From Bolinopsis microptera (taxonomy: Eukaryota; Ctenophora; Tentaculata; Lobata; Bolinopsidae): 64,000 bases of DNA. How positions within the stretch are numbered: position 1 is the first letter of the stretch; every line of letters begins with the position of its first letter. Shown here one piece after another: positions 20,608 to 44,211 of this stretch. The stretch covers positions 10,268,902 through 10,332,901 of the forward strand of contig NC_087076.1 of the NCBI RefSeq assembly GCF_026151205.1, read 5' to 3'. Under the pieces are notes generated by a model. The model searched no databases, was not told the DNA's origin, and was given only the letters and a program-made list of their open reading frames with translations. The translations under genes and the position numbers were made by a program.

Positions 20608-20701
20608 ATGACCTTCATAAAGAAACGAAACCGAGCCCAGTCCCTGGAATGCATCTTCTCGATAAGGAAGGCGGACCAGCGCAAAGGAAGCTTGCAGACC
20701 G
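20608..20701 (+). CDS. Candidate alternative first exon a (MTFIKKRNRAQSLE...)
   Basis: ATG at 20608 opens 31 codons and then a donor CG|GTGAGA in phase 1, compatible with the C1 exon starting at 21424. The peptide is basic with R-A-Q-S-L and R-K-A-D motifs. It cannot be an internal exon after 4029: its only nearby acceptor-like AG gives a clashing phase. It is therefore best read as a first exon from an internal promoter. Spliced to 21424 it replaces the first His and three Cys of the C1 finger, leaving half a finger. Coding to 39411 this would be about 123 residues; coding to 48654, about 816. Confidence 0.55.
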
Positions 20702-21423
20702 GTGAGAGTGACACCTTCATCACACCTTCATTGTAACCCTAACTTACTGTCGTAATTTTGCAGTACATTTAAACTTTATCCATGGGAGGAAACATTTTTT
20801 ACATTTTATTTATTTCGAGCGCCGTGAAGGGTATGTTAACGTTACGAATGGGAGGGACCATTGGCTCTCCTATTGTGTTTGTGTGAGTGTAATAATAATC
20901 AATAACATGAAATTGTTAAGGAATTATGACAGCTATTTGACTGGAATTTTAACACACAAAAGACAAGTCTGATCCGTCTTAATGAAGTGTTAAAAATCCC
21001 TCTCCGAAGACCCAGACTTTTACCTATTTACAGACCTGACAAAACTCCATAGCTCACCCACCCTGCTCTATATAGGAATCTAAGTATCTTACACACCCTG
21101 TTCTCGGAGAAGGGCTGATGTTTAATAAGACAGACTGTTAGTAGTTATAGTACCACCACGCCTGAAGAAGGAGGCTTGTTAGTATGTTAGTAGTAGGAGT
21201 AGTAATACTCCGAGTAACAACACGCCTGAAACACCTCTCACTAGATTGTTAAAAACAGTGACACTGCATTGTGACAACATTGTGACAAGACATTTTTCCC
21301 TACTATTTACCCTAATTTAAGATCCACCCAAAGTCTGGTTATAACATTTAACCTCATATTTAACCTCCGAGAATTGTCTCACATTTACAACTCACCCTCA
21401 AATCTAACCTCCTCTCTCCCCAG

Positions 21424-21534
21424 ACTGCGAGTACCTGGTCCACAAAACGTGCAGTATGCAGACACTGGAGGCCAGCCCTCCACCCCGAGATAAGAAACCG
21501 CACAAGAAACTCAACTGGAGCTCACACAACCCAG
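21424..21534 (+). CDS. Exon 5: second half of the C1 zinc finger and linker
   Basis: Acceptor CCTCTCTCCCCAG and donor GTATGT; phase 1 in and out. It encodes C-E-Y-L-V-H-K-T-C, the last part of the C1 finger, then a proline/lysine-rich linker. The eighth position after the final Cys, where C1 domains usually have another Cys, is Ser. Joined to exon 4 the split codon is His (C-T-H-C); joined to 20608-20701 it is Asp. It can splice onward in phase 1 either to 39245 (stop exon) or to 44153 (GEF exons). Confidence 0.85.
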
Positions 21535-24500
21535 GTATGTAGTACTTGTATGTCTGTCTGTTTGTGTCTGTCTCCCTAGTTTGTTGGAATTTCAGTTATT
21601 TTCGTCTGTTTGTTTGTTGCTGTACTAGACTGTTAATTCAACCTTCTTAGCAGCTTATTATGGGGGTTTATATCAAATAAAAGGGAGGCAACAACCACAT
21701 AATTTTTATCGAGATGTTGCTTTATTCTGTCAGATAATGTGTATATTTTGTCAGTTGTTCTTGTCGTCAAAGATATAATTGGATATTGTGGTCTATCATT
21801 TGATGGGTCAGGGTTTGGTGGGTGGTTACTGGTTAACCTGAAGGGTTTGGTCTAATTAGGCCCCAGGGCTGAAATTTGTGGAAGGTGGGAACTAACAGGT
21901 GCGATGCGAGCAATTCTACCGTGTTGCTTTAAACAATGTTTGCAAAGAACTTCTACTGTAACTATACTCTAATTTCTAAAAATAACTAGTCTAATATTTT
22001 CAAGATTATAATAATGATTATAGCTGGTATAGATGTTAACAATATAGAACACATTGCAACATTATAATGAGCTGCTCCCATGTGATACAATCACATTATT
22101 AAACTAATGCTGTAGTGTTCTGGACCGTGTTGAGCACACTATGTACGTGTGTTTCTCCTTTAATATTTATTGACTATCCTTTTGCCACCTCCATACTCCT
22201 TGTTTGCCTGCCGTTGTAACCGAAACTTTAATTAATAACCTTCACAACCTTTATTTTTGACATCAAACATTTCATGGAAATGGAAATAAACTTTTCCCGC
22301 CGAATTATGAGTATTTCCAATTTCTCCTAACAACAGATAGGTTACGCTTCTCCGTACTGCTTAAGTTTCCAGTTTCTTGCCGTTTTATCCTACGTAAAAC
22401 TGAAATCATGTTTGATATTTTTTTAATTTAGTATCATCGCATCATGTTATCTACATTTTATGCACCTTATATAATAATGCGTCAGTTGGTACGAAAATAG
22501 AGCCATGGGAAATACAGTGTCGTATTTCACGTCCAGGATTATTATTCTGGAATTATGAGCCACTTGTTGTGTTATTCAGTGGTATGTTTATTATCAGTGC
22601 GCATAATTTTCTCTTAAGACTGCCCATTATGTTTATAATTCTCTTGTTATCGGTTATTTGTCTTATCGTTTAAATAATTATTTTTGTAGGCTAGAATGCC
22701 AGACCAAGTCTAGTTTCCTTGATTCGATGTCTAGATTTTAATTTCTGTACTTATGATAGGGACAATAATATTAACTAAAATTATACCCCCAAAATAACGG
22801 GACTTGTTAATCGTTAGGCGCCACTAGGTATATTGATTTTTATATGCGATTACTCATTTAAAACTTAGGCCTCATTAATTCTTTAATTAACTCTCCATGC
22901 GCGCGCTACATAAGTGTTAGCATCATCATATCGACCTCATCCTAAGATCACTGTATCTAATTAACACTCTTAAATTATCACCTACTCAACCCCCACCTTT
23001 AGCGTTAGTTCAATGGTGCCAGTCTGACCTTCTTTACCAATTCTACAACCTTTTATTGACATATTATAACCTTCTACAACCTTCTATTAATGTATTTACT
23101 CCTCTAAAAACTCGCGTTCCCCTCCTTCCTGTCAATGATCTCGGACTTCTGACAGTGAAATTAACGATGTCAGCCTCGCATTATCGGAGATGTAGGACGG
23201 AACAAGTGTTTCTGTTAACCGGACAATAATCCTGATTTGATCAGGGAGAAGGAGAGGTTTCTCCACTCCCCTGGCTCCACCCTCTATTCCTCATCTCCAC
23301 GATTCTTTGTCCGCTTTTTGTTTTGATCTGGTTTTTCGTGGTATTTCAATTAGGTTCCTGCTCATTTAATCATTATTACTAAATCCTGCTGAGTTCATAA
23401 TGTGTTCAGAAACATATCAAGTTCATTATTCCTTCTTTTGAAGAGCCCGCTATTTGGAATTGGACTAATGACCAATGAACGTGACTATGAATCTCATGGA
23501 AAAATTACTTTCCAGATAACAGGCGAGATGTTCGTGACTTCTGAGGTCCTTTCTAATTTTATTCCCTCGATTTCTCATTCCTCTCCGGGGTTTTTTTTTG
23601 GTGGCTCCTACCAATTGGTATTTTATTCAACAAATAAAAACTTCGATTGGCCACACCTTAACTTTAAATAAAATATTATATTATGATAATTATTATTTGT
23701 TTGTATGGCTTTAACAAACTATAATAAACTATTATATAAACAATAATTGCTCTGAATAATGTAAGTAAATTTTCGTCGTCTTGTTTATATAAAATGCACC
23801 CCTTTCGACGTGGTTTTCATTATTTTTATCGATAAATGCTCAACACAGAGCTATACTTTGTCTCTATGACTTGATCCTTCATTTTATATTTATCACGTAC
23901 ATTAACTCCGACTCTCACTATTTGTACCCTTCCTTAACTCTTCACTGCTAGACAAACTCCTCGCCGCGCTGTCTTGAGACGCACTTCTGCGGATTTATTC
24001 CCTTTAATCCGATCCACTTTATTACATCCAACGTGAGCTATAGCTGCGTGTTATCTGACTTCCAATCCACTTATGATAACTTATACGGCCTTATTAACTA
24101 TTTAGAGTCATATCCCATACACTGGAACTCATTAAAACACGATACATCTCGAGATCTGCTCAAGATCTCTCGTGGTCACTGACACCTTTTTACAGGGGTC
24201 TATGATTTAAGAAGCTATTCTTGTCCCCAGTGCCCTCTCTCTCCTCCCTGATCATGCATGTCAAGGTAACTCGCCGGATCTAGTCCAGATTAGATTAGCG
24301 AGAATCTGTTGTTGAGCTCCCTAAATCGTGTATATTTTCTGCGTAACATATCGCCGAGAGAATGGTGATCTCACTGGATCCAAACTCGCGAGCAGTTTCA
24401 CTCCATTTTTAGTCCAGCGCGTGAGTGGTTGCTTTTAAAATTTGCTTCTCGTAATTTCTTGCTTATCATAATATCTTGTTCTGTGTCCTGGAGTTCTTTT

Positions 24501-43879: not shown

Positions 43880-43980
43880 GTAAGTTCGGAAGAGATTTGG
43901 AAGAAATTTTAAAACTGGATAATCACACACGTATAAATGCGCATGCTCATAGGACTCATCGATCATCGATCAGTCATAAT

Positions 43981-43996
43981 CCCCCCCCCCCCCCCC
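43981..43996. repeat. Poly-C run of 16
   Basis: A homopolymer of C within the intron; its length is likely to be variable. Confidence 0.9.
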
Positions 43997-44152
43997 TACA
44001 ATCTTTAAACCGTCTGTTTGTTTGTAACCTGTGGTAAAGTTGTCATGTTGTTGTCTAAGTTTATGATTCGGTAATATCTGATCGCATCTAAAATACTGTT
44101 TTCAGATCTTAACCCTTTTTGTACACATTTTCTAAATTTTATTCCATTTCAG

Positions 44153-44211
44153 TTGCTCTATTGAACAAGAGACCTTCAAACCACGAAGTACGAGACATTA
44201 GCCATCAAAAT
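44153..44211 (+). CDS. Exon 6: common entry exon to the GEF module
   Basis: Acceptor ATTCCATTTCAG and donor GTAAGT; phase 1 in, phase 0 out, 59 nt. It encodes A-L-L-N-K-R-P-S-N-H-E and a short polar tail. It is the only in-phase partner for all the upstream phase-1 donors on the GEF side. Confidence 0.8.

Follow-up and report, generated by a model that had tools for sequence, protein, structure and literature searches.

The window analysed here, 64,000 nucleotides of the ctenophore Bolinopsis microptera (C5:10268902-10332901 in an assembly searched as 264,652,675 bases on 232 contigs), carries on its plus strand a gene that, from its sequence, is a ctenophore Lbc-type RhoGEF with a repeat-rich N-terminus followed by C1, DH and PH_16 domains. 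Inside its two long introns lie a candidate internal first exon at 39982-40204 and, less surely, a second at 20608-20701, from which the C1 domain would be bypassed to give C1-less RhoGEF isoforms. We regard this interpretation as having about an even chance of being right. It takes the place of the arrangement drawn in a first-pass annotation, where four ATG-bearing segments served as interchangeable starts for the same C1 and RhoGEF exons; such a multi-way hub is not supported.

When exons 1 to 7 are joined they give a single open frame. Exon 1 (502-1753, 5′ limit uncertain) lies in an open frame spanning 502-1761, contains in-frame ATGs near 538 and 550 and ends in phase 1 at a donor scoring 4.7. 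It is followed by exon 2 (2283-2307) of just 25 bases, running from phase 1 to 2, exon 3 (3195-3318, phase 2 to 0), and exons 4 (3933-4029, phase 0 to 1) and 5 (21424-21534, symmetric at phase 1 to 1), which encode the first and second halves of the C1 zinc finger, respectively. Exon 6 (44153-44211, phase 1 to 0), the common landing point of the proposed C1-less forms, leads into exon 7 (44369-45809, phase 0 to 1), whose DH and PH_16 domains were matched in the frame 44327-45856. Exons 8 and 9 (45987-46042 and 46169-46378) and further C-terminal exons carry the gene to a stop at 48652-48654. The two long introns, of 17.4 and 22.6 kilobases, are both in phase 1 because exon 4 ends in that phase, exon 5 is symmetric in it and exon 6 begins in it.

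The domain assignments bear out the earlier description of the gene as a Rho activator. In Pfam, the DH domain of exon 7 (RhoGEF, PF00621) scores 113 bits against a cut-off of 27.6 and the PH_16 domain directly after it (PF17838) 48.3 against 22.8; the best PDB sequence matches are ARHGEF11 and AKAP13. N-terminal to the DH domain, exons 4 and 5 joined match C1 (PF00130) with 28.4 bits, the cut-off being 26.5. Seven of the eight zinc ligands usual in C1 are present, the last Cys being absent, and a PDB sequence search with the C1 region gave no match at expectation values (E) up to 1. PH_16 was matched once in the assembly as against 20 RhoGEF exon matches, in an exon-wise search that split domains could escape. 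Relatives of the DH-PH exon were absent from genome_contigs and viral_contigs, non-animal collections in which near records may be omitted.

Exon 1 contains, by eye, three copies of a basic serine-rich unit, as well as a His/Asp-rich unit of 27 residues with a period of 81 bases in 5.2 copies; no Pfam match over the cut-off was found in this repeat region. Nor was there one for the frame 48022-48267, where a charged heptad-like stretch can be seen by eye, a possible counterpart of the C-terminal coiled coil of Lbc-type RhoGEFs. Downstream of the gene lies a twelve-kilobase tandem array (51103-63210), built from CCAGGTAGGCA-type units whose periods include 72, 88 and 160 bases. Nothing over the Rfam gathering score was found in positions 1-51000 of the window, and a tRNA search found none.

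The segments proposed as starts, 20608-20701, 36919-36997, 39982-40204 and 43816-43879, do lie where the first-pass annotation placed them; each is open, is followed directly by GT and ends in phase 1, as exons 4 and 5 do at 4029 and 21534. The proposed acceptors at 21424, 39245 and 44153 are preceded by AG and open on entry in phase 1, the second only as far as a stop at 39409-39411. The four segments are of unequal quality, however. The best of them, with an acceptor-like AG at 39968 scoring 4.3 (39968-40204 in all), has its ATG at 39982 and a donor of 6.9. Its codon score of 15.2 is the only positive one among the frames, and stays so when the score is retrained on the DH-PH and C-terminal exons alone (15.3) or on the N-terminal exons alone (6.4). 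The segment at 20608 is moderately supported, with a donor of 5.7 and a codon score of 11.4. Those at 36919 (donor 3.7, codon score -4.3) and 43816 (donor 2.8, codon score -0.8) sit at noise level, so that two of the four claimed start exons stand above the null and two do not.

The frequency of such segments was assessed by scanning both long introns for ATGs whose frame stays open over 60-240 bases up to a donor of at least 2.5, a cut-off that would miss three of the nine canonical donors. Twelve candidates with distinct donors were found, compared with an average of 10.9 in 100 order-4 simulated intron sets, and seven of them (one within a mobile element, see below) end in phase 1, compared with 3.6; at least seven phase-1 candidates were reached in 14 of 300 order-3 sets. 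On the minus strand of the introns there are again 12 candidates, four of them in phase 1. The number of candidates is therefore ordinary and the phase-1 excess slight, and the earlier reckoning, that each phase would match by chance one time in three, ignores selection. Donor and codon score taken together are another matter. A donor of at least 5 with a codon score of at least 11 occurs in none of the order-4 sets, and with a score of at least 11.4 in none of the order-3 sets, where the maximum is 8.8; 39982 and 20608 thus surpass all 400 simulated sets. Codon scores of -5 or better number six in the real introns, including these two and one mobile-element candidate, while simulated sets hold 3.4 on average and at most eight.

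Could these segments be internal exons instead? If the 20608 segment is entered from exon 4 via 20604, the third codon read is a stop. Entry from exon 5 via 39968 or 39979 likewise brings the 39982 frame to a stop; entry via 43783 runs into one too, and entry via 36915 or 36918 is open but leaves a phase that does not fit exon 6. These stops, in a test that covered entry from exons 4 and 5, mean that 39982 and 20608, if protein-coding, are most likely first exons. The start-exon products stay open when joined to exons 6 and 7. The segment at 43816 may also be viewed as a weak phase 1 to 1 cassette at 43808-43879, open after exon 5, with an acceptor of -0.2. A purine stands at -3 of each of the four ATGs, as it does in about half of the null candidates (1.74 of the 3.4 per simulated set). 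In the assembly, the stretches 20450-20900, 36800-37100, 39160-39530, 39800-40400 and 43650-43960 match only themselves, with a tool that skips very common words, which rules out the start exons being repeats or mobile copies. Domain order, frames, phases, donors, coding bias and these self-only matches are all direct observations.

As drawn, the hub conflicts with the order along the DNA. Every start had been held able to reach every acceptor, but linear splicing allows only seven of the 12 pairings, because 21424 precedes three of the starts (36919, 39982 and 43816) and 39245 the last two of these. The exon at 39245 (39245-39411, acceptor 0.1) is neither a C1 nor a RhoGEF exon as had been thought: before its stop it offers no donor above -3.6, where the nine canonical donors range from 1.1 to 6.1, and an AATAAA follows at 39447. 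Without a usable donor it is ruled out as an internal exon and would be at most a 3′-terminal one, so that a protein spliced into it would end before the DH domain. A possible but weak phase 1 to 1 cassette at 39397-39489, absent from the first-pass annotation, overlaps it; its acceptor scores 6.0 and its donor 4.1, with a codon score of -4.9. Equally, since exons 4 and 5 each encode one half of C1, no proposed start yields it intact. Three of the four starts lie past C1, and joining 20608 to 21424 gives the second half only, for which Pfam returned nothing with E values up to 10. Free exchange of regulatory N-termini onto the C1 exons is thus ruled out by DNA order and the split of C1, and the choice, if real, would be between C1-containing and C1-less forms. 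The R/K-x-x-S sites noted in the start peptides are indeed there in three of the four, but such sites also occur in 28.5% of 1091 null peptides and in five of the 12 scanned intron candidates, and are weak evidence.

Several points weigh against internal first exons. The highest codon score of all the candidates, 25.1, belongs to 8930-9104 in intron 4, within a multi-copy element, a warning that a host exon cannot be recognised by coding bias alone. That element, at 8720-9300, matches 22 stretches of the assembly (its own copy and fragments included) with the same tool that finds the start exons only once; 12 of the 22 cover all 581 bases, nine of these at 100% rounded identity and on several chromosomes. 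These copies mark it as a recently moved mobile element; no Pfam match over the cut-off was found in its open frames. At 20608 a second frame scores 9.6 on codons, and the score of the proposed frame drops to 2.7 with N-terminal training. None of the four starts has a TATA[AT]A in the 200 bases before it, and CpG shows no clear peak at them: observed/expected values of 0.98 at 20501-21000 and 0.89 at 39751-40250 are equalled in many other 500-base windows. The start peptides show no likeness, beyond that of shuffles, to one another or to the canonical N-terminus. The phase agreement of the two better exons is only a 1-in-9 coincidence. Finally, the sites were scored with generic metazoan splice weights, and the cut-offs of 5 for donors and 11 for codon scores were chosen after the candidates had been seen. 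Exon duplication was rejected as the source of the start peptides, even the best comparison being equalled by 59 of 500 shuffles. The 74-residue peptide of 39982 matched nothing besides itself at E values up to 1.

These considerations bear on whether all four ATG segments are simply chance open stretches in about 40 kilobases of intron, the gene having a single start and the phase match reflecting the annotator's selection. The unremarkable number of candidates, the recurrence of the phase-1 count in simulation, the negative codon scores of 36919 and 43816 and the lack of similarity among the start peptides are all as this would predict. It does not readily accommodate 39982 and 20608, however, which no simulated set equals, and the minus strand's single donor of at least 5 comes with a codon score of only -1.5; we consider chance a possible but rather unlikely explanation of the whole set. 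Alternatively, 39982, and perhaps 20608, could be first exons of small genes nested within the introns on the same strand as the RhoGEF gene, rather than RhoGEF starts. Nested genes are common in the ctenophore Hormiphora, where excerpts of PMC8527503 give 2357 of them in 1654 hosts, many parallel to the host. Against this, a scan of the introns for open internal exons gave five on the plus strand, with a best codon score of -0.4; the scan is an insensitive one, its cut-offs (acceptor 4, donor 3) passing two of eight canonical acceptors and six of nine canonical donors. Nested genes seem to us a distinctly improbable source of these exons.

The addition of a spliced leader in trans at AG sites before the ATGs, at 39968 and less so at 43783 and 20604, is a variant of the internal-first-exon interpretation rather than its opposite, and the likelihoods of the two overlap; taken separately, we judge it unlikely. 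The leader is present on 56% of Hormiphora Iso-Seq reads, according to excerpted text of PMC8527503. The AG at 39968 stands 14 bases before its ATG and, at 4.3, is equalled within 60 bases at 29 of 544 intronic ATGs; that at 43783 scores 3.1, with 43 of the 544 as good. The AG sites for 20608 (0.7, 152 of 544 as good) and 36919 (-1.5), on the other hand, are ordinary, the leader-end motif was not found within the window, and trans-splicing would still require an internal promoter.

When the genome was searched for the end of the leader together with a donor, 32 matches were returned, compared with nine for a reversed control, and 20 of the 32 were inspected with their flanks by eye. Five of these (L034-L038) are clustered within 88 kilobases at C13:12807040-12894551 and have a leader closely similar to that of Hormiphora, followed by GTAA as donor and by downstream sequence that all five share; on this evidence they are probably spliced-leader RNA genes. 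The shared downstream sequence could fold, as judged by eye. A copy on C12 (L040) has the leader with a different downstream sequence, and the other 14 matches inspected lack this leader, although L023 and L024 resemble each other, as do L025 and L026. A leader with donor similar to that of Hormiphora thus exists in this genome, with only candidate use at the present locus. The more specific proposal is that the gene, apparently the animal's sole PH_16-type RhoGEF, switches from C1-containing to C1-free products by leader addition at acceptors inside it, chiefly 39968, and so within one gene rather than between genes; this strikes us as very unlikely.

To return to internal first exons, the gene would have its main start at exon 1 and one or more further starts inside the long phase-1 introns, at 39982-40204 and, less surely, at 20608-20701. 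These start exons would be spliced in frame to exon 6 at 44153, and 20608 also to exon 5, and the resulting RhoGEF isoforms would have a short basic N-terminus and no complete C1 finger. The start of transcription, the splicing and the activity are what we infer here; the start itself may depend on a promoter alone or on a trans-spliced leader. By analogy with GEF-H1 and AKAP13, the C1-less forms would be uncoupled from tethering or inhibition that depends on C1, and may act as Rho activators freed from C1 control.

GEF-H1 (ARHGEF2) shares with the ctenophore gene the order C1, DH, PH; the ctenophore gene differs in that a large N-terminal exon rich in repeats precedes C1, and in that its C1 domain lacks the last usual zinc ligand. 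GEF-H1 is not known to have an exon of this sort. Excerpts of PMC12475976 describe the C1 domain of GEF-H1 as participating both in binding to microtubules and in autoinhibition, and report tumours from C1-deleted mutants in a xenograft test. AKAP13 (AKAP-Lbc, proto-Lbc, Brx, onco-Lbc) likewise combines an Lbc-type DH-PH region with an upstream C1, and may offer a precedent for the kind of isoform suggested here. Excerpts of PMC5345129 describe proto-Lbc as a shorter AKAP13 splice variant that lacks the anchoring domain at the N-terminus; in excerpts of PMC4156082, Brx is another AKAP13 isoform. The ctenophore gene differs from AKAP13 in an N-terminus with no Pfam match over the cut-off and in isoforms that are, as yet, predicted.

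What lies at this locus is probably, then, a known kind of arrangement in an early-branching animal, with one and perhaps two internal first exons. Ctenophores are the sister group of other animals according to excerpts of PMC10232365, where Bolinopsis RNA-seq and Iso-Seq data are also reported. If the animal's only PH_16-type RhoGEF does come both with and without C1, control of Rho activation through isoforms, of the sort seen in AKAP13 and GEF-H1, would be either very old or have arisen more than once.

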